NCBI GenBank assembly: GCA_025980435.1 | Contig: JAICXK010000017.1 | Span: 1 to 36,311 of the forward strand | Direction of reading: 5' to 3' | Origin: Bryobacteraceae bacterium | Lineage (GTDB): Bacteria; Acidobacteriota; Terriglobia; Bryobacterales; Bryobacteraceae | Length of the DNA stretch: 36,311 nt | Shown here: positions 4,635 to 23,125 of the stretch, piece after piece | How positions within the stretch are numbered: position 1 is the stretch's first letter | How the letters are laid out: each line of letters opens with the position of its first letter | Notes under the pieces: model-generated | What the model saw: only the letters and a program-made list of their open reading frames with translations | The model's database searches: none | What the model was told of the DNA's origin: nothing | Translations under genes and position numbers: made by a program

Positions 4635-4662
4635 TTGCCTCTGCGGCTGGCCGTGTTATGCT
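4635..4662 (+). promoter_or_regulatory. Putative housekeeping promoter upstream of deoC
   Basis: TTGCCT (4635-4640), 16 bases and TATGCT (4657-4662) form a reasonable -35/-10 pair. Transcription would start near 4669, leaving a leader of about 45 bases before the deoC ATG at 4716, or a nearly leaderless message for the in-frame ATG at 4671. Confidence 0.35.
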
Positions 4663-4715
4663 TGACGCACATGCGCGTCCGGCGCGTGAATCTCGCCTCC
4701 CGATTCATCGAAAAC

Positions 4716-5468
4716 ATGAGCGTTGACGAGACACTGGAAAATCCAAAGACCGCCGCGTCACTGATTGATCATACGGTTCTGAGACCAGAAGCCACGCAGG
4801 AAGACATCGCAAGCGCTTGCGCGGAAGCTCGTCAGTTTGGGTTCGCATCGGTTTGCGTCAACCCGTACTGGGTTCGTTTCGCTGCTGCCGCCTTGGACGG
4901 TTCAGATGTTAAAGTTTGTGCGACGGTAGGCTTCCCATTGGGTGCAAATGAATCCACTACAAAATTGGCGGAGGCCGATCTGGCCTTGTTGGAAGGTGCG
5001 AAAGAACTGGATATGGTTCAGAATATCGGCGCGCTCCGGTCCGGCCATTTGGAAGTCCTTCGGAAGGAAATCCGACAACTCGTGGAGCGAGCACATGCCC
5101 AGGGCGCCATTCTTAAAGTGATACTGGAAACTTGCCTCCTTTCCGATCAAGAGAAGAAGTCGGCGTGTCATATTGCGGTCGAATCTGGCGCGGATTTTAT
5201 CAAAACTTCAACCGGATTCTCAAAATCGGGCGCAACGCTGGAAGATGTGCGGCTCATGCGTCAAATTGCGGGCAACTCCGCAGGTGTGAAGGCGGCCGGC
5301 GGCATCCGGACATTCGAAATGCTCAGGACCATGGTGCTCGCCGGAGCCAATCGCATCGGTACCAGCGGGGGAGTGCAAATCATACGGGAGCTTGAAGGCG
5401 GCGCGCCTGCCAAAACTCAACCTTTGCCCGCTACCCACGTGCCAGGCGGTCATCCAAATACATATTGA
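4716..5468 (+). CDS. deoC: Deoxyribose-phosphate aldolase
   Basis: A 250-residue class I aldolase that splits 2-deoxyribose 5-phosphate into glyceraldehyde 3-phosphate and acetaldehyde in deoxynucleoside catabolism. The Schiff-base lysine is Lys163 in GADFIKTSTGF. The second lysine of the active site is Lys192 in GVKAAGGIRT, and the acid Asp99 is in KELDMVQNIG. The start IDHTVLRP is typical. The ATG at 4716 gives a normal family length, while in-frame starts at 4671 and upstream add residues without similarity; none has a clear Shine-Dalgarno. The stop overlaps the ATG of the next gene by one base, so it is probably co-transcribed with the phosphatase gene and perhaps lysA. Confidence 0.95.
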   Translation: MSVDETLENPKTAASLIDHTVLRPEATQEDIASACAEARQFGFASVCVNPYWVRFAAAALDGSDVKVCATVGFPLGANESTTKLAEADLALLEGAKELDMVQNIGALRSGHLEVLRKEIRQLVERAHAQGAILKVILETCLLSDQEKKSACHIAVESGADFIKTSTGFSKSGATLEDVRLMRQIAGNSAGVKAAGGIRTFEMLRTMVLAGANRIGTSGGVQIIRELEGGAPAKTQPLPATHVPGGHPNTY

Positions 5469-7252
5469 TGGCTACGACACGTAAATCTCAGGTGCGCTTC
5501 CGCGAGCGGGTGGAATTGCTCGACTTTCTTCTGGAAGTCAGTACCGTTACTGCCGAGACTCTGGATCTGGACCGGCTGCTGTCGAACGTCGCGGAGATTG
5601 TCAAGGAGGTGGTGCCCTACGAGCTTTTCGCCATTCTCCTGTACAACGAACGGAGCCGCGCCTTACGCATGCGGTACTCGATCGGCCATCGCGATGAGGT
5701 GGCGAAAAGCCTGTCCATTCATCTGGGTGAAGGCATAACAGGTTGGGCGGCTCAATCCCGTCAGCCGACCCTTCTCGGCGATGTACGCACCGATTCGCGA
5801 TACCTGAACGCGTTGGATGCCGTGCGCGCCGAGTTGGCTGTTCCCATGCTCGTGCGCGGCAAACTCGTCGGGATCATCGATCTGCAATCCACCCGTGTCA
5901 ACGCTTTCTCCGAACAAGACAAAGCTTTGCTCGCGCTCATCGCCAGCCGCGTCGGAACAGCGATAGACAACGCCCGTCTGTACCGGCGGGTAAACGGCCA
6001 GAACCGGACTTTGCGGGTTCTCGCCCATCTATCCCAGGAGTTCAGCTCCATTCTGGAAATCGATGAGCTGCTGACCAAAATCACGGTTACGATACGAGCG
6101 TTAATCAACTTTGATGCATTCAGCGTCTACCTCGTCGATCTGGAGAGAAATCTACTCCGCTGCCGGTTCAGCCAGCGCTACGACGAAAAGGCGACTATCG
6201 AAACTATTGAAATCGGGAAGGGAATCACCGGCGCGGCGGCCGAATCGCGACAGGTGATACGCGTTGCGGATGTAACTCAGGACCCGCGTTACATCGCCGC
6301 ACACAGCGATATCCGTTCGGAAGTCGCGGTTCCGCTCATTCTGCGCGACCGCGTGATCGGGGTTCTGGACCTGGAGAGCGTGCGCCTGGCGTTCTTCACC
6401 GATGATCATGTCCGCGCTCTTACGCTCCTTGCGCCCCAGATTGCGACCTCGGTTGAAAACGCCAGGCTGTATCAGGAACTTGCGCAGCGTGAACAGCGCA
6501 TGGAGCAGGATCTGCAGGCCGCTTACAAACTTCAATCCCTGCTGATGCCGCGAGCGATTTCGGGAGTTGCCGGAGTCGAAATCGGCCTGAATTCGCGGCC
6601 CGCCCGCGAGATCAGCGGCGACCTCTACAACTTTTTCGAGCCCGGAGACGAGTACACTCTGATTGCATTCGGCGATGTGAGCGGGAAGGGAGCAGCCGCG
6701 GCGCTCTATGGCGCGCTTATCACCGGGCTTTTGCGCATGCTTGCTCCCAGGCGGCACAGCCCATCGGAGCTTATGAAATCTCTGAACGAGGCGCTTCTAG
6801 AGCGAAGAGTGGACGCCCAGTATGCAACGTTATCTCTGATTACCTGGACGGCGCGGACCCGAACGTTCACGGTAGTCAGTGCCGGAACTCTTCCGCCTAT
6901 GCTCTGCCGGGCTGGAAAGATTATCGACTCCCGCGCCGAGGGCATGCCCATCGGGCTCCTCGAAGACCAACAGTACGATCAGGTCGAAATCACCGCTGAA
7001 GCTGACGATCTGCTGATCTTGTATTCCGATGGCGTTGAAGACCAACTGGGCGATCATAGCTCGCCCGATTCCATCGCCGTTGATGACGATCCCGAGACGT
7101 ACGGACGGGGCCGGTTGAAAAAGGTAGTCACTACTCATTACAAACTTCCGCCTCAGCAGATTGTGAAGAAGATATTCAATGACATCGACGTTTTCCGCGG
7201 CGCAACTCCGCTAACGGACGACCAGACCGTCATTGCGCTTAGGGTGCTTTGA
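5468..7252 (+). CDS. GAF-GAF-PP2C (SpoIIE/RsbU-type) protein phosphatase
   Basis: A 594-residue cytoplasmic signalling protein. Two GAF sensor domains cover about residues 30-170 and 195-338; each has the LGEGITGWAAQ / IGKGITGAAAE type core and a VPLILRDRVIGVLDLES-like strand pair. A short coiled linker (AQREQRMEQDLQAAYKLQSLLMP) leads to a SpoIIE-type PP2C domain at about 370-590. Its metal-binding acids are present: EISGDLY, FGDVSGKGAAAALYG, LYSDGVEDQ, and DDQTVIAL. It is therefore likely an active Ser/Thr phosphatase. Relatives act on anti-anti-sigma proteins, but no STAS or anti-sigma gene is nearby. Its ATG overlaps the deoC stop, indicating translational coupling. The GAF ligand is unknown. 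Confidence 0.93.
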   Translation: MATTRKSQVRFRERVELLDFLLEVSTVTAETLDLDRLLSNVAEIVKEVVPYELFAILLYNERSRALRMRYSIGHRDEVAKSLSIHLGEGITGWAAQSRQPTLLGDVRTDSRYLNALDAVRAELAVPMLVRGKLVGIIDLQSTRVNAFSEQDKALLALIASRVGTAIDNARLYRRVNGQNRTLRVLAHLSQEFSSILEIDELLTKITVTIRALINFDAFSVYLVDLERNLLRCRFSQRYDEKATIETIEIGKGITGAAAESRQVIRVADVTQDPRYIAAHSDIRSEVAVPLILRDRVIGVLDLESVRLAFFTDDHVRALTLLAPQIATSVENARLYQELAQREQRMEQDLQAAYKLQSLLMPRAISGVAGVEIGLNSRPAREISGDLYNFFEPGDEYTLIAFGDVSGKGAAAALYGALITGLLRMLAPRRHSPSELMKSLNEALLERRVDAQYATLSLITWTARTRTFTVVSAGTLPPMLCRAGKIIDSRAEGMPIGLLEDQQYDQVEITAEADDLLILYSDGVEDQLGDHSSPDSIAVDDDPETYGRGRLKKVVTTHYKLPPQQIVKKIFNDIDVFRGATPLTDDQTVIALRVL

Positions 7253-7260
7253 CCGGCGCG

Positions 7261-8538
7261 ATGCTCGACAAGACCTTCACCTATCGGAACGGTTTCCTGT
7301 TCTGCGAAGATGTTGCGCTATCCGATATTGCCGCTTTACATGGAACTCCGGCGTATATTTATTCCAAATCGGCGATCATTGACAGGTTCCGAGCCTATAA
7401 GGCTGCTCTGAAAGGGCTGTCACACCGTATCTGTTATTCGGTTAAGGCGAACTCCAATCTCGCGATTCTGGCTGCGCTCAAAGCCGAGGGCGCGGGTTTT
7501 GACATCGTGTCCGGAGGCGAACTATATCGAGTACTGGCCTGCGGCGGCGATCCGCGTTCCGTCGTGTTTTCCGGAGTCGGAAAAACGGAAGCGGAAATTC
7601 GCTTTGCCCTCGAGCGAGAGATACACAGCTTCAATTGCGAATCGGAAGCGGAAGTTTATTTGATCTCGCGAATTGCCGTGGAACTGGGGCGAACGGCAGT
7701 CATTGCCATCCGAGTGAACCCCGATGTCAACGCGATTACCCATCCTTACATCTCAACGGGTCTCAGGGAGCATAAGTTTGGCGTGGATATCGGAGCGGCC
7801 GAACGCATCTATGCGGCGGCGGCTCACCTGCCCGGCATCTCTGTCCAAGGGGTGAGCTGCCATATAGGCTCGCAACTACTCGACGTCGAGCCCCTGCTCG
7901 AAGCTGCTGGTAAGGCGCTGGAACTGGTTTCACGATTGCGCGCACAAGGTATTCCCATTCGGAACCTTGACCTTGGGGGCGGCCTTGGCGTACCCTACCG
8001 GGCGTCTGAGCGAGCGGCTGATATTGAAACTTTTATAAACCGGCTGCGGCCAAACGTGGAAGGCGCGGGCTTGACGCTCACACTCGAACCCGGCCGGTCG
8101 ATTGTAGCCGAGGCGGGTCTCCTGTTGACGCGTGTACTTCTTAACAAGTGTAACGGTCAGAAAACGTTCGTGATCGTCGATGCCGCCATGAACGATCTGA
8201 TCCGGCCTTCGCTGTACCAGGCTCATCATGAGATCGTTCCGGTGTGCCAGGATCCAAGGGCGGACAGAATCCGGGCGGACGTAGTAGGGCCTGTGTGCGA
8301 AACAGGCGACTTCTTTGCGCGCGGACGCGAACTGCCTTCCGTTCACCCCGGTGATTTGCTGGCCATCCAGACCACCGGCGCGTACGGGTTTGTTCTCGCC
8401 TCGAACTACAATTCACGCCTGCGACCCTGTGAACTTTTAGTAGATGGGACACGTATTATCCTCGCGAGGAGACGTGAGACCTACGAAGACCTCATTCGCG
8501 GCGAATTATCTAACATCGGAACTGAACCGGGAGCATAA
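7261..8538 (+). CDS. lysA: Diaminopimelate decarboxylase
   Basis: A 425-residue PLP enzyme of the fold III (alanine racemase-like) class, catalysing the last step of lysine synthesis from meso-diaminopimelate. Lys62 in CYSVKANSN is the PLP lysine. GGGLGVPY binds the phosphate, EPGRSIVAEAG contributes the specificity helix, and GPVCETGDF carries the catalytic Cys from the partner subunit. GAYGFVLASNYNSRLRP is the typical C-terminal Tyr motif. The ATG at 7261 is chosen; a TTG at 7249 overlapping the previous stop would add four residues and neither has a strong Shine-Dalgarno. It lies eight bases after the phosphatase gene in the same run. Confidence 0.96.
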   Translation: MLDKTFTYRNGFLFCEDVALSDIAALHGTPAYIYSKSAIIDRFRAYKAALKGLSHRICYSVKANSNLAILAALKAEGAGFDIVSGGELYRVLACGGDPRSVVFSGVGKTEAEIRFALEREIHSFNCESEAEVYLISRIAVELGRTAVIAIRVNPDVNAITHPYISTGLREHKFGVDIGAAERIYAAAAHLPGISVQGVSCHIGSQLLDVEPLLEAAGKALELVSRLRAQGIPIRNLDLGGGLGVPYRASERAADIETFINRLRPNVEGAGLTLTLEPGRSIVAEAGLLLTRVLLNKCNGQKTFVIVDAAMNDLIRPSLYQAHHEIVPVCQDPRADRIRADVVGPVCETGDFFARGRELPSVHPGDLLAIQTTGAYGFVLASNYNSRLRPCELLVDGTRIILARRRETYEDLIRGELSNIGTEPGA

Positions 8539-8556: not shown

Positions 8557-9483
8557 ATGAGCGATCCTCCCATTCTGGTTCGAAATCTTTACAAGTCGTA
8601 CGGCAACGTTGAAGCCGTACGAGGGATTGATCTCGAGATCGCTTCGGGAGAGGTTTTCGGCTTGCTCGGACCGAATGGGGCGGGGAAGACGACGACGATC
8701 GAAATCCTGGAGGGTTTGCGGCCCCGTACGAGCGGGCAGGTCTCGGTACTTGGTTTTGATCCAGCCCTGCAGAGTAAGGAGATCAAAAACCATATCGGCG
8801 TTTGCCTGCAGGCGACGAACCTGCCTGACAAAATCAAAGTTCATGAAGCGCTCGACCTGTTTGCGGCATTTTACGACCGTCAGGCGGATCGCGACAAAAT
8901 TCTACAGCGCCTTCAGCTTTGGGAGAAGCGTGAAGCCTTCTATAAATCTCTTTCCGGAGGGCAGAAGCAGCGCGTCGCTCTTGCCTTAGCTCTATTGAAC
9001 GAGCCCACGCTTCTCTTTCTGGACGAGCCTACAACCGGCCTGGACCCGCAGGTTCGCCACGAGATTCATGGAGTAATTCACGAACTGAAGGAGAATCACC
9101 GCTCGATCCTGATTACGACGCATTACATCGAAGAGGCGGAACGTCTTTGCGACCGGGTCGCCATCATCGATGGCGGGAAGATCATCGAACTTGGAACGCC
9201 GCGGGAGATACAACAGCGAGTTCTGGGCGAATCGCTGGTTGAAGTGACCACGAACGGCGTAATGCCATTCGACAAACTCCCGGATGCTTTACGCGACATG
9301 AAGCACACGACGCACGATGAGGGCCGTACACTTTCCATTCAGACGGACTCTCCGCCGGCAACTATTGTTGAGCTGGTCAAATGGATCGACCAGCACGGCT
9401 TAACATTGACCGACATCCATCTGAAGCGGCCTACGTTGGAGGACGTGTTTATTGAGCTCACCGGACGGAAACTGCGGGAATAA
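8557..9483 (+). CDS. ABC-2 type transporter ATP-binding protein
   Basis: A 308-residue ABC ATPase of the DrrA/CcmA/NatA type that drives ABC-2 permeases. Walker A is GPNGAGKTTT (about residues 39-48), the Q-loop is GVCLQATN, the signature is LSGGQKQR (about 133), Walker B is LLFLDEPTTGLDP and the H-loop is ITTHYIEEA. After residue 220 there is a C-terminal extension of about 85 residues ending PTLEDVFIELTGR, usual for this subfamily. It begins 18 bases after lysA and its TAA is followed directly by the ATG of the permease-amidohydrolase fusion, its obvious partner. The cargo is unknown. Confidence 0.95.
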   Translation: MSDPPILVRNLYKSYGNVEAVRGIDLEIASGEVFGLLGPNGAGKTTTIEILEGLRPRTSGQVSVLGFDPALQSKEIKNHIGVCLQATNLPDKIKVHEALDLFAAFYDRQADRDKILQRLQLWEKREAFYKSLSGGQKQRVALALALLNEPTLLFLDEPTTGLDPQVRHEIHGVIHELKENHRSILITTHYIEEAERLCDRVAIIDGGKIIELGTPREIQQRVLGESLVEVTTNGVMPFDKLPDALRDMKHTTHDEGRTLSIQTDSPPATIVELVKWIDQHGLTLTDIHLKRPTLEDVFIELTGRKLRE

Positions 9484-11676
9484 ATGAGACCGTATCTCGC
9501 GCAGATCAAGAGCAGCCTGCAGCTGATGGGCCGTGACCGCTCGATGTTGTTCTTCAGCTACGTTTTTCCGCTGGTCTTCTTTTTTCTGTTCGCGCAATTG
9601 TTCGATGGCCGCCAGAGCGCAGCTGCAATGGCCCAGGTCATCTCGATGGTCCTGATTATCGGCATATTGGGAAACGGTTTTTTCGGCGCGGGCATGCGAG
9701 CCATTCAGGACCGTGAGACTAACGTGCTGCGGCGATTCAAGGTGGCTCCCATCAGTGCGGCGCCCATCATCGTCGCCTCACTGGTATCGGGCCTGGTGGC
9801 CTTTTTGCCCTCTGTTTTCCTGTTCTTCTTTTTTGCTGCGACCATCTATCGCATGCCGCTGCCCCACAATCTGTTTTCAATTGTTGTGTTTGTCTCTATC
9901 GGCGTGATTGCCTTTCGCGCCATGGGCATGATTATCGCGGCGGTGGTGAACTCGGCGCAGGAAGGGAGCGTTCTCACACAGATTCTGTACCTTCCCATGC
10001 TGTTTCTGAGCGGTGCGACATTCCCTCTCAGCATCATGCCTATTTGGGTGCAGACCATCGCCCAGTTCATGCCCGCGACGTATTTGTATCAAGGTACGCA
10101 AGCGATCATGATAGGCGGTCAGGGAGTGCTGGCCAATCTCGTCGCCGTCTTCGCGCTGCTGATCACTCTGGCTGTTGCTCTGATTGTCGGCACGAAGCTG
10201 TTCCGCTGGGAGAAGGAAGAGAAAATCTCCGGAACCGCTAAGCTTTGGATTCTTGCGGTTCTGGCTCCGTTCTTTATTATGGGCGTCTACCAGGCGCGAA
10301 CGAAGCAGAACATCGAGCAGGCGAAGATCCTGGCGCGCGCCGCCGCCCGCAATCGCTCTGTACTGTTTCAGAACGCGCGAATATTCGTCGGTAATGGAAC
10401 GGTCATCCCGGATGGCGCGGTGCTGGTCCGTAACGGAAAAGTCGCGCAGGTCTTTACGGCTCCAGCCAACACAAAATCGCTTGATGCCGATGTGGTTGAC
10501 GCCGCAGGCAAGACTCTGATTCCCGGGCTGATCGACTTGCACGTCCACATTGGCGCCCCGGGAGGCGTTTACCGGGATATTGCAAAGTATGCCGATCCGA
10601 ACGCGCCAAAGCGAAGGTTGGCAGCCTATCTCTATAGCGGGATCACCGCCGTCCGAAGCACCGGCGATTGGCTTAACCAATCTCTCAATCTGCGCGCGGA
10701 GATCGAATCCGGCAAGTATCTCGGTGCGCAATTCTTCGCCTGCGGGCCCCTGTTCACCGCCGAAGGCGGACACCCGACGGAGCTCCTGAAGGTCCTTCCG
10801 GAGAGCCTGCGCAAGGAGGGCGAAGAGCAGTTCCTCCGGGTGCCGAAATCGCCGGAGCAAGCTCGAAGAATGGTCGACGATCTGAAGCACGCCGGAGTTG
10901 ATTGCATTAAGGGCGTCCTGGATGCCGGAAACGAAAATTGGGGCCGCTTCAATCGCCTGGATACGAAAATATATGATGCCGTGATCGCGGAGGCCATTCG
11001 CGACGGACTGCCTTCGGTAACCCACACCGGAAGCGCCGCCGACGTGAAAGACGCAGCCGATGCGGACACGAGCAGCGTCGAGCACGGTTCGATGGTTGAT
11101 TTGATTCCGGATTCAACCTTCTCGGAAATGAAGAGGAAAGGCATCGCCTATGATCCGACGGTCAGCGTATTTGAAGCGATGGTGGACATGCGAACAGGCA
11201 ACCCCGAACTGCTGAATCGCTCGTTGCTACAGCAGGCCGCTCCGGCGGATTTGCTCGAATCTACTCGCGCTGTAGTTCAGAAAGAGAATAAGACAGATCC
11301 CGAACGCTTCAATGGCCTCATGAATCGGGTCAACAAAAATCTACTGAACGCATATAAATCCGACGTGATGCTGATCGCTGGCTCCGACGCCGGAAATATG
11401 CTGGTGATTCACGGCCCAACCGTGCAACACGAGATGGAACTCTGGGTGAAGGCCGGCATTCCAGCGGCCGTAGCCCTGCAGGCGGCCACCTACAATGCCG
11501 CGAAGATCTTACGCGCTGATGATCGGATCGGCAGCATTCAGCCCGGCCGCGATGCGAATCTCGTTCTCCTGGATGGCGATCCTGTTAAAGATATTTCGAA
11601 CACGGAGCACATCTACTCGGTGATGTTCCGCGGGGAACGCATCGACCGTTCGGAATTGCTGAAACAAGATCAGTGA
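9484..11676 (+). CDS. ABC-2 permease fused to an imidazolonepropionase-like amidohydrolase
   Basis: One 730-residue frame holds two families. Residues 1-240 are an ABC-2 permease with six predicted helices (about 20-40, 50-70, 95-122, 129-155, 163-182, 213-238), including the LSGATFPLSIMP loop and PATYLYQGTQ segment of DrrB-like permeases. A seventh hydrophobic stretch lies at 253-269. Residues 290-730 are an amidohydrolase: HVH (His353, His355), Lys476 in DCIKGVLDAG, His514 in THTG, His534 in EHGS and Asp635 in GSDAG, so the binuclear metal site is complete, and an AATYNAAKIL...GSIQPGRDANLVLLDGDP ending is typical. With six helices plus one the enzyme would sit outside the cytoplasmic membrane. 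The ATG directly follows the ATPase stop. I know no characterised protein with this architecture. Confidence 0.9.
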   Translation: MRPYLAQIKSSLQLMGRDRSMLFFSYVFPLVFFFLFAQLFDGRQSAAAMAQVISMVLIIGILGNGFFGAGMRAIQDRETNVLRRFKVAPISAAPIIVASLVSGLVAFLPSVFLFFFFAATIYRMPLPHNLFSIVVFVSIGVIAFRAMGMIIAAVVNSAQEGSVLTQILYLPMLFLSGATFPLSIMPIWVQTIAQFMPATYLYQGTQAIMIGGQGVLANLVAVFALLITLAVALIVGTKLFRWEKEEKISGTAKLWILAVLAPFFIMGVYQARTKQNIEQAKILARAAARNRSVLFQNARIFVGNGTVIPDGAVLVRNGKVAQVFTAPANTKSLDADVVDAAGKTLIPGLIDLHVHIGAPGGVYRDIAKYADPNAPKRRLAAYLYSGITAVRSTGDWLNQSLNLRAEIESGKYLGAQFFACGPLFTAEGGHPTELLKVLPESLRKEGEEQFLRVPKSPEQARRMVDDLKHAGVDCIKGVLDAGNENWGRFNRLDTKIYDAVIAEAIRDGLPSVTHTGSAADVKDAADADTSSVEHGSMVDLIPDSTFSEMKRKGIAYDPTVSVFEAMVDMRTGNPELLNRSLLQQAAPADLLESTRAVVQKENKTDPERFNGLMNRVNKNLLNAYKSDVMLIAGSDAGNMLVIHGPTVQHEMELWVKAGIPAAVALQAATYNAAKILRADDRIGSIQPGRDANLVLLDGDPVKDISNTEHIYSVMFRGERIDRSELLKQDQ

Positions 11677-17589: not shown

Positions 17590-18795
17590 ATGAACATCAC
17601 AGAGGCGGTTAGTTTCAGCCTGCAGGCCTTGCGGGCGAATCGCCTCCGCACATTCCTGACCGCTCTCGGTCTCATTATCGGTAATGCCTCCGTCATTCTC
17701 GTCGTAACCATCTCATTGGCGGGTAAGAACCTGATTCTCGATCAGATTCGTGGAATCGGTTCGAATCTCGTTTATGCCGATTACGAAGCGGGAGGAGAGA
17801 ATCTGGCCCAGGTGGAGGCCGATTTCGTCAAGCTCTCCGATGTTCAGGCCATCCGTGAAGACTTGGGGAACACAATTGTGGCCGCGTCCGCCGTCATGAA
17901 CACGCACGAACACATCGTCGTGAACGGCAAAGTGCGAATCGTTACGGTCGATGGTGTGGACGATCAGTACGCACGCGTTCGCAATCTGGTTCTCCTGGCG
18001 GGCCGTATCTTCGATCAAAGCGATATGACGCTGCGGGAGCATGTGGCGATGCTCATCGATAAGCTGGCAATCCGCATGTTCGGAAGCCAACAGGCGGCGT
18101 TGGGGCAGACCATTAAAATCAGTCAGCTTCAATTCACCGTGATCGGCACATTCCGGGAAAAGACCAGCACCATGAATCAGGGCGAAATCACAGATGACAC
18201 GATCCTGATTCCGATCACAGTGATGAAGTACTTCATGGAATACGAGCGGATCAACCCGGTTTATATCGAAGTTCGCAATGCCGCCGACGTGCCGATGGTC
18301 ACACAGCGGGTCAACGATATCCTGGAGCGCCGCCACCGTCCAGGCGCAAAATACAATGTCCAGAACCTCAGCGCCATTCTGGAGACTGCCGACAAAATCG
18401 CCTCCGTTCTCACTATCGTTCTGATCATTGTCTCGGCTATTGCTCTCATCATTTCCGGTATCGGCATTATGAACATCATGCTTGTAACGGTGACCGAGCG
18501 AACGCGCGAGATCGGTTTGCGCATGGCGGTGGGAGCATCGCGCCGCGACGTTATGCTTCAGTTCCTCATCGAGTCCGTGTTGATCAGCCTCGCCGGCGGA
18601 AGTGTCGGTATCGTGCTCGGACTCGCTCTGCCGATAAGTGTCCGGCTACTTTTCGAGCAGGTTCGGGTCCCCATCTCGGCGCTTTCCGTGCTGGTCGCGT
18701 TCGGCGTCTCCTTTGCGGTCGGGGTTGGCTTCGGCCTGCTTCCCGCGCGCCGCGCTTCGCAGTTGAATCCTACCGAAGCGCTGCGTTACGAGTAG
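17590..18795 (+). CDS. MacB/FtsX-like ABC transporter permease
   Basis: A 401-residue permease of the MacB type. The first helix is at about residues 22-45 (FLTALGLIIGNASVILVVTISLAG). A periplasmic MacB core domain spans about 46-265. Three helices follow: about 272-300 (VLTIVLIIVSAIALIISGIGIMNIM), 330-355 and 365-390. The cytoplasmic signature VTERTREIGLRMAVGASRRDVMLQFLIE is the FtsX/MacB coupling segment. LLPARRASQLNPTEALRYE is the characteristic C-terminus. No ATP-binding subunit or membrane-fusion protein is adjacent, so it must pair with an ATPase encoded elsewhere. The upstream secreted TPR protein is its likely operon partner. The 3' end overlaps the convergent hydrolase gene by 26 bases. 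Confidence 0.93.
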   Translation: MNITEAVSFSLQALRANRLRTFLTALGLIIGNASVILVVTISLAGKNLILDQIRGIGSNLVYADYEAGGENLAQVEADFVKLSDVQAIREDLGNTIVAASAVMNTHEHIVVNGKVRIVTVDGVDDQYARVRNLVLLAGRIFDQSDMTLREHVAMLIDKLAIRMFGSQQAALGQTIKISQLQFTVIGTFREKTSTMNQGEITDDTILIPITVMKYFMEYERINPVYIEVRNAADVPMVTQRVNDILERRHRPGAKYNVQNLSAILETADKIASVLTIVLIIVSAIALIISGIGIMNIMLVTVTERTREIGLRMAVGASRRDVMLQFLIESVLISLAGGSVGIVLGLALPISVRLLFEQVRVPISALSVLVAFGVSFAVGVGFGLLPARRASQLNPTEALRYE

Positions 18796-21558: not shown

Positions 21559-22356
21559 TCATTTCATGGCCGCGGTTCGGGTGTTCCGGAGCGTGGATTC
21601 CAAGGATTCCCGCGGCACGTTCTGTATCAGCGGCTTGATCGCCCAAGCCAGTCCCAGCGGAATGTCTCGGGAGAGAGAAAGACTGCGGCATTCCGCCAGA
21701 ACACCGCCGTTCATCGCTTCCAGGCTCCAATATCCGTACAGCCGCCAGAGAAGTCCATACCCTTTACCGGAGGGTAGCTTCTTCTCCTTTGATGTTCCTG
21801 GGTTGTCCACTTCTGAGATGTCGTTTGCGTAAGCGCGGCAAATCCACTTACCGGGCCCGATCTGTTTGTAATGCGCCTCCTCTATGACATCCAGTGCGAT
21901 CGGTATCATCGGGCCTTTTTGTTTCAACCTCCATGACCCTGTGAAATCTTCGCCGTTCCGCCGAATCAATTTCGATTGAATAATCTCCGGGTAAATTTCG
22001 TGATGCCGGTCGAAATCCTGCAAAACAGCCAGAACTTTGCCGATCGCCGTATTCGGAATGAATACGTCGCCCAGCCAATCGTGAATCAAGCCGTGTGGAG
22101 CACTGATAGGGTTATCCGCAGAGCCGGGCCGGATTAGCAATTCGCCTGCCAGAACTTTCGTTCGGTCAGACGGTGTTTCGCTAACGGATAGAAACGCCCG
22201 CTTCCCGTCCCAACGGCTCTGCAACTGCCGTTCGATCTTGGTCGCATAAACTGAAAAATCCTTGACCGTGCCAGGCTGCAGCGTCGTCTGGAACTGGCCG
22301 AAAGCGGGACCGGCCGTAAGCACGAAAGCGGCGGAAAAGGCAAAGGAGATATGCAT
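21559..22356 (-). CDS. Secreted START/SRPBCC-like lipid-binding protein
   Basis: A 265-residue protein. The signal peptide (MHISFAFSAAFVLTAGPAFG/Q) lacks basic residues before the hydrophobic core. The region from about residue 85 to 250 (HGLIHDWLGDVFIPNTAIGKVLAVLQDFDRHHEIYPEIIQSKLI...) has the order of strands and helices of START/SRPBCC folds, which bind hydrophobic ligands. This is a fold-level call. The ATG at 22356 is preceded by GGGGGAAG at a good distance. Its start codon overlaps that of the divergent SDR gene, each ribosome-binding site lying inside the other gene. Confidence 0.75.
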   Translation of the reverse strand: MHISFAFSAAFVLTAGPAFGQFQTTLQPGTVKDFSVYATKIERQLQSRWDGKRAFLSVSETPSDRTKVLAGELLIRPGSADNPISAPHGLIHDWLGDVFIPNTAIGKVLAVLQDFDRHHEIYPEIIQSKLIRRNGEDFTGSWRLKQKGPMIPIALDVIEEAHYKQIGPGKWICRAYANDISEVDNPGTSKEKKLPSGKGYGLLWRLYGYWSLEAMNGGVLAECRSLSLSRDIPLGLAWAIKPLIQNVPRESLESTLRNTRTAAMK

Positions 22357-23125
22357 GAGCGACTTCCCCCAGTTTGACTTGCCCGGGCAAGTGGCCCTCG
22401 TTACAGGCGCTGCTCGCGGCTTGGGCCGTGCGATCGCGCTCGCCTTGGCGAACGCCGGCGCGAACGTGGCAATCGGCCTCCGTGACCTGCATGCAGACGC
22501 CGGATTGGCGGCGGAAATCGAGCGCCTGGGCCGGCGCGTTTTGCCTCTACAGATGGACGTTGCGCGCATGGATCAGATCGCCGCCTCCGTGAACTGCGTC
22601 GTGCGGCACTTTGGACGCATCGACATTCTCGTCAATAACGCCGGCATTGCGCCAGAGAATCTCGCCGAAAACGTGCGCGAGGAAGATTTTGACAACACGC
22701 TCGCCGTCAATCTGAAGGGTACGTTCTTTACGAGTCAGGCGGTTGGACGCGTGATGATCGAGCAGCAGAGCGGGCGCATTATCAATATGAGCTCTCAGGC
22801 AGGTTTTGCCGCGCTTCCGACAGAATCTGTCTACTGTATGACCAAAGCAGGCATCGCGCACCTCACGAAATGCCTGGCAATCGAATGGGGAAGATACAAC
22901 ATTACGGTGAATGCTGTCGCTCCGACCTTCATCCGCACTCCGGGCACGGAGCAAGCGCTGGCCGATCCTGAATTCCGTACCGATGTGATTACGCGGGTTG
23001 CGGCTCTTCACCGTATTGGCGAACCCATGGATGTCGCCGGGGCGGTCGTGTTTCTGGCATCCCCGGCCGCATCGCTCATCACCGGCCACACGCTCCTGAT
23101 CGACGGCGGTTGGACGGCGCGTTAA
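22355..23125 (+). CDS. Short-chain dehydrogenase/reductase (FabG-like)
   Basis: A 256-residue classical SDR. The cofactor motif TGAARGLG is near residue 16, NNAG near residue 93, and the catalytic Ser-Tyr-Lys set is in SSQAG...SVYCMTKAG (about 145-165). The C-terminus SLITGHTLLIDGGW is standard. The enzyme oxidises or reduces a hydroxyl/keto substrate; 3-oxoacyl-ACP or a sugar/steroid alcohol cannot be told apart from sequence alone. The ATG at 22355 has AAAGGAG six bases upstream. Ku follows after 56 bases. Confidence 0.93.
   Translation: MSDFPQFDLPGQVALVTGAARGLGRAIALALANAGANVAIGLRDLHADAGLAAEIERLGRRVLPLQMDVARMDQIAASVNCVVRHFGRIDILVNNAGIAPENLAENVREEDFDNTLAVNLKGTFFTSQAVGRVMIEQQSGRIINMSSQAGFAALPTESVYCMTKAGIAHLTKCLAIEWGRYNITVNAVAPTFIRTPGTEQALADPEFRTDVITRVAALHRIGEPMDVAGAVVFLASPAASLITGHTLLIDGGWTAR

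Follow-up and report, generated by a model that had tools for sequence, protein, structure and literature searches.

We describe here a single open reading frame that joins a predicted seven-helix ABC-2 permease to a putative extracytoplasmic amidohydrolase within one protein of 730 residues. The frame starts with ATG and occupies positions 9484-11676 of the window, that is, of the whole 36,311-nucleotide stretch of Bryobacteraceae DNA analyzed; window features lie on the forward strand unless stated otherwise. Judging from the homologous sequences compared, what is new is that the enzyme repeatedly decays while the fusion stays, and attachment itself seems to do something. Exporters that process their cargo chemically at the outer face of the membrane have hardly been studied.

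The permease core (residues 1-239, positions 9484-10200) comprises six membrane helices, assigned from Pfam matches to ABC2_membrane and ABC2_membrane_3, AlphaFold2 helices, hydropathy and the distribution of lysine and arginine. The ABC2_membrane match spans residues 8-209 (E 2.5e-23), scoring 83.2 bits against a curated cut-off of 26.9. A seventh membrane helix follows (residues 250-273, positions 10231-10302), supported by the AlphaFold2 model, its hydrophobicity and a homologous helix in three permeases that carry no enzyme, and then a basic linker helix predicted from the model and its charge count to lie on the outer side (residues 275-289, positions 10306-10350). The amidohydrolase domain of the cog1228 group (residues 291-727, positions 10354-11664) consists of a beta-sandwich and a TIM barrel, as recognized by Pfam and VIA-align, with Amidohydro_1 matched at residues 344-718 (E 1.6e-24) above its curated cut-off. 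The AlphaFold2 model of the fusion (mean pLDDT 85, pTM 0.79) has the same order, running from the permease helices through helix 250-273 and the short helix 275-289 to the first enzyme strand at residue 293. ORF coordinates and Pfam thus confirm the original prediction that a permease, an extra helix and an amidohydrolase share one frame of 730 codons. No Peptidase_M1 domain was matched in the fusion protein by Pfam, and the permease, compared with solved structures by phmmer, gave no match at E 0.01. The fold-search matches of the whole-fusion model were those of the enzyme domain and thus do not cover the permease fold independently.

Relatives with an ABC-2 domain followed by an amidohydrolase were sought, and the best of them carry the two as one frame and not as separate genes. 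A scan of named genomes yielded 177 relatives, and the best 80 of the 177, on which the frame and neighbor counts are based, are all uninterrupted single frames of 724-741 residues from independent assemblies (80/80). Their hosts are Bryobacterales and other Terriglobia (Acidobacteriota), together with Chthoniobacterales/Spartobacteria (Verrucomicrobiota). Among 60 related genomes searched, which included 16 other members of the window's genus, the full-length frame was found in 13 of these 16; in one of the others it is split over two contigs, and two had none, one of them being 55% complete. The uninterrupted frame is also present in isolate KBS 96 and in strain F-183, whose genome is nearly complete. 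Of 200 genomes from the window's family, 134 gave a match at E 1e-60, a few of these with the hydrolase or the permease alone, and in one order of Verrucomicrobiota 15 of 147 genomes matched, nearly all with full-length fusions. Since the frame is intact in 13 other genomes of the genus and in all 80 best homologues, a frameshift or missed stop at 10230-10380 can be excluded for practical purposes. That sequencing or assembly artificially joined two genes has a negligible probability: nothing found speaks for it, and dozens of assemblies made independently share this frame at 47-76% identity. These comparisons support a fusion that is genuine and old. Two fusions from Verrucomicrobiota (L206 and L207) group beside the window's acidobacterial genus, apart from the other Verrucomicrobiota, a placement which suggests a second lateral transfer.

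The ATPase gene had been placed immediately upstream, and this is where it lies: a 308-residue ABC ATPase resembling DrrA and NodI (positions 8557-9483; Pfam ABC_tran, E 6e-31) ends where the fusion begins. It carries a Walker A motif (GPNGAGKTTT), a signature motif (LSGGQKQR) and a Walker B motif (LLFLDEPTTGLD). In 67 of the 80 homologous loci an ATPase gene lies directly 5' of the fusion, most commonly with a 4-base overlap. The ATPase scores 267.7 bits against NCBIfam drrA (cut-off 312.45), and the permease 57.6 bits against drrB (cut-off 223.05). In exporters of the DrrAB/NodIJ type, too, ATPase and permease are encoded by two adjacent genes and an ABC2_membrane domain is present, whereas the fusion adds a seventh helix and an external enzyme and scores under the drrA and drrB cut-offs. 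No other neighbor recurs among the 80 loci. Deducing the substrate from the gene neighborhood was considered and rejected, as only the ATPase gene recurs. Just 5' of the ATPase gene, positions 4635-8538 hold genes for a DeoC-like aldolase, a GAF-SpoIIE phosphatase and a LysA-like decarboxylase, each with 4-base overlaps; this order is limited to about 10 loci close to the window's genus.

The topology of the protein bears on where the enzyme would act. With the N-terminus inside, the predicted cytoplasmic loops contain on average 12.2 lysines and arginines, the outer loops 2.4 and the stretch after helix 7 5.6, and the inside majority holds in 128 of 132 sequences even when the residues after helix 7 are counted as outside. 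Helix 7 is about as hydrophobic as helix 5, and no 19-mer of the enzyme domain comes close to it. Among the stand-alone amidohydrolases of these genomes, most of the nearest ones start with a signal peptide or lipobox, as judged by eye, which implies that this group of enzymes normally acts outside. The sole point against an outward enzyme is that the stretch after helix 7 is basic, which is unusual for the outer side. The amidohydrolase domain therefore likely faces outside, and the predicted role of helix 7 in placing it there is supported by the charge distribution, the hydrophobicity of the helix and the signal peptides or lipoboxes of most of the nearest stand-alone relatives.

The origin proposed for this helix did not hold up. 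It had been suggested to be the former signal peptide of a secreted amidohydrolase, an idea we rejected because in families f2 and f7 the stand-alone permeases (L029, L030 and L031) already have a homologous helix 7, followed by a short external tail. Stand-alone permeases of family f7 occur in about 20 genomes, mostly as frames of about 300-350 residues. The enzyme would thus have joined a permease that already had its end on the outer side.

VIA-align placed the modeled enzyme domain closest to 9kov (Z 43.0), 3mtw (Cc2672; Z 41.9) and 2qs8 (Z 41.7), at 24-26% identity, and by the model the fold is that of the cog1228 group of dipeptidases and carboxypeptidases. The domain has the makeup of a binuclear, lysine-bridged amidohydrolase, with HxH, Lys, His, His and Asp set in a TIM barrel with a beta-sandwich. 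Inspection of the codons located all six metal ligands at the residues first assigned to them, and in an alignment of the best 80 homologues plus the window (81 sequences) each ligand is conserved in 77-80, all six being intact in 74. His353 and His355 form the HVH motif of barrel strand 1 (positions 10540-10548; 80/81 each). Lys476, expected to be the carboxylated bridging ligand, is encoded at 10909-10911 (78/81), His514 within 11023-11031 and His534, in EHGS, at 11083-11085 (77/81; Tyr in strain KBS 96), and Asp635 of GSDAG at 11386-11388 (80/81). In the alignments, His430 of a GGH motif (10771-10773; 76/81) falls on the corresponding histidine of 2qs8 and 8ihq, which is the oxyanion-hole histidine of the cog1228 group (PMC10699109). 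Asp395 and Glu433 are also conserved in most sequences. Further on, the HGPTVQHE motif (residues 643-650, positions 11410-11433) has H643 and G644 conserved in at least 90% even of tails from which the catalytic core has been deleted.

The region after strand 5 sets the fused enzymes apart. Two residues after the strand-5 histidine lies the carboxylate-binding residue, Tyr in Sgx9260b/c; it is His in the solved relatives 2qs8 and 8ihq, while the fusion set has Thr and then an invariant Gly516 after His514. Gly516 thus stands in place of the alpha-carboxylate-binding residue of the cog1228 peptidases and N-acyl-amino-acid hydrolases, whose role has been described (PMC10699109), and because of this a simple dipeptide or N-acyl-alpha-amino-acid substrate may be the wrong assignment. 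Epsilon-lysine aminoacylases likewise lack that Tyr (PMC10699109). Enzymes of the cog1228 group cleave Xaa-Pro dipeptides and N-acyl amino acids (PMC11511702), and a secreted enzyme of the amidohydrolase superfamily cleaves tauro-bile salts (PMC13081902). By this analogy the enzyme group suggests an amide that includes an amino-acid-like moiety, but no particular compound. The match to the NCBIfam Xaa-Pro dipeptidase model NF051886 reached 157.5 bits, under the cut-off of 500. All the fused enzymes in the Bryobacterales/Verrucomicrobiota set fall into a single clade (support 100), separate from the stand-alone enzymes. With the characterized cog1228 enzymes (Cc2672 3mtw, the Xaa-Pro dipeptidase 2qs8, Sgx9260b/c and the ochratoxin amidohydrolases) the domain has in common the fold (Z about 40), the HxH-K-H-H-D ligands and the GGH histidine, at 23-29% identity; those enzymes are free-standing and have H-A-H after strand 5, in contrast to the fused domain with H-T-G.

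Among homologues the metal site is often damaged. When the window is counted together with the 80 unselected homologues, a ligand is missing in 7 of 81 sequences. We further classed 138 distinct homologues: the six ligands are complete in 83, some or all of them are missing in 49, and another 6 lack the tail (leaving 132 with a tail); the 49 were partly picked for shortness, so these counts are not population frequencies. In many damaged tails residues ~427-557 are deleted, including Lys476, His514 and His534, and these tails are still in frame and retain the beta-sandwich as well as the HGP motif. On a tree of the permease part only (73 rows, with bootstraps) the intact and damaged states change 16 times, and 16-17 times in bootstrap trees. 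At least 11 of these changes are forced by well supported branches, and 11 are also found in a 136-row tree. As the regaining of a six-ligand site is implausible, the changes would be losses, and the trees thus argue that the metal site was lost independently at least 11 times. Three tail-less sequences (L125, L153 and L154) have most likely lost the domain, since they are nested inside the fused clade. Single-ligand losses in otherwise full-length fusions were seen in the clade of the window's genus, in isolate KBS 96 (His534Tyr) and in L095 (His355Arg).

The damaged tails have nevertheless remained under selection. Their dN/dS values are 0.09-0.32, versus 0.02-0.14 for their permease parts, whereas intact tails have values of 0.06-0.14, like their permeases, and damaged tails evolve about twice as fast. 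These values suggest that intact sites are constrained as enzymes and that damaged tails are still constrained, but less. For one core-deleted homologue (L155) the best model had a mean pLDDT of 80, the other four being far lower, and the modeled tail matches amidohydrolases at Z 24-27. Because damaged tails are kept in frame and under purifying selection, and one of them is modeled as amidohydrolase-like, we infer that the tail has a non-catalytic role. As many relatives have lost the metal site, the pump does not depend on hydrolysis in every lineage.

These data could also mean that the amidohydrolase was recruited chiefly to give the pump a lid, scaffold or binding domain on the outside, catalysis being secondary and constantly lost. 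We consider this rather unlikely. At least 11 independent losses of the metal site that left the frame intact, a folded beta-sandwich and shortened barrel that are retained, purifying selection on dead tails, and the presence in the group of permeases with another external domain, CIA30, with or without an amidohydrolase, all speak for it. However, the ligands are conserved in most sequences together with His430, Asp395 and Glu433, and the evolutionary rate of intact tails is as low as that of the permease, which argues that catalysis is selected there; moreover, dead tails evolve about twice as fast, and three lineages nested in the fused clade lack the tail altogether.

The original prediction had left the direction of transport as either export followed by hydrolysis or hydrolysis during uptake. 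Export is favored by the DrrAB/ABC-2 exporter type and by a structural alignment, and uptake is less likely; the direction is strongly inferred by analogy and rests on family resemblance, the drrA and drrB scores both being below cut-off. In that alignment, the permease model of L155 matches the ceramide-bound ABCH transporter ABCH-9C with Z 20 over 240 residues, which is weakly consistent with a lipid-like cargo, the likeness being weak because helical folds readily give middling scores. Coupled scavenging, in which the enzyme would hydrolyze an external conjugate and the permease import the product, would suit the mostly secreted nature of the solitary relatives and would be permitted by the outward geometry of the enzyme. 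It is nonetheless very improbable, as a permease of the ABC-2/DrrAB type with its ATPase belongs to exporter families and no gene for a substrate-binding protein recurs beside the fusion in the 80 homologous loci.

The best explanation, which as a whole has about an even chance of being right, is an export pump with an external amidase domain that would also have a function besides catalysis. In this reading, a half-transporter of the ABC-2 (type V) export class would work with the adjacent ATPase, which would drive the permease, the assembly presumably being a permease dimer with two ATPases. Through the seventh helix, the amidohydrolase would be carried at the outer surface of the inner membrane. 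The cargo, guessed from the enzyme group and the permease fold, would most likely be amphipathic and amide-bearing, such as an N-acyl amino acid, a lipo-amino acid or a peptide conjugate, and by the same guess the external enzyme would cut the amide bond as the product emerges. Hydrolysis might then make export irreversible by preventing return, or release an active product. Given the repeated loss of catalysis, the domain would also have to serve the pump in another way, by binding, capping or assembling it, and such a role would allow the domain to persist as a pseudoenzyme where a lineage has no further need of the chemistry. Tentatively, it is possible that the amidohydrolase became a permanent external part of the exporter, which caps, gates or assembles the pump and cuts cargo only secondarily; the metal site could then have been lost at least 11 times with a folded, constrained remnant still fused because the domain is mainly a pump part.

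An export pump could also serve self-resistance or detoxification, a toxic amide being expelled and cut outside to block its re-entry. DrrA and DrrB are the nearest named families, and ochratoxin-cutting amidohydrolases (8ihq and 8yak) are among the nearest solved enzymes. We nevertheless hold this to be improbable, since no biosynthetic or resistance genes recur beside the fusion in the 80 homologous loci and its near-universal presence in the genus looks more like housekeeping.

The architecture was thought to have no characterized counterpart, which stands in part. Our literature search found no description of an ABC-2/amidohydrolase fusion, so that as far as searched the amidohydrolase version is uncharacterized, but as a kind the permease-hydrolase fusion is already known, an ABC-2 permease fused to an M1 aminopeptidase having been described in Myxococcus (Q1D520, TC 3.A.1.145.1; PMC3924187). 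Like the fusion, Q1D520 joins, in one protein, an ABC-2 export permease whose helices are odd in number to a C-terminal zinc peptidase; it has, however, 13 helices and an unrelated M1 peptidase, versus 7 helices and an amidohydrolase here. Within the window's genus or family we found four proteins of 1179-1229 residues with an M1 peptidase at the end (L294, 520-4137; L295, 772-4356; L296, 480-4166; L297, 2207-5743, reverse strand), and an ABC-2 domain was recognized in three of the four, one of the three below cut-off. This is the architecture of Q1D520, and both kinds of fusion are present in the window's genus. Peptidase-containing ABC transporters carry a cytoplasmic C39 domain that acts on cargo before transport. 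They too unite a transporter with a cargo-processing enzyme in one protein, but their enzyme works inside and before transport, whereas the amidohydrolase would act outside and after it.

Sister permeases of family f6, of the same class (38% identity), carry CIA30. One protein of 882 residues combines an ABC-2 permease, an amidohydrolase with intact-looking ligands and CIA30 (L249, 2320-4968, forward strand), and two have the permease and CIA30 alone (L250, 2635-4047, and L251, 2277-3680, both forward). Comparison of a single with a double origin of the amidohydrolase fusion in f6 gave an AU p of 0.35, a value that fits either origin. One architecture thus exists in nature as pump alone, with active enzyme, with dead enzyme, and with CIA30 with or without enzyme, a set of states which allows one to ask what the enzyme gives the pump besides catalysis. 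The fusion also points to an amide-bearing compound that would be exported by two common soil phyla.

Elsewhere in the window, a 336-residue ORF on the reverse strand (21559-22569) has no Pfam match, and a MacB/FtsX-type permease gene (17590-18795) lies immediately 3' of a gene for a TPR protein.
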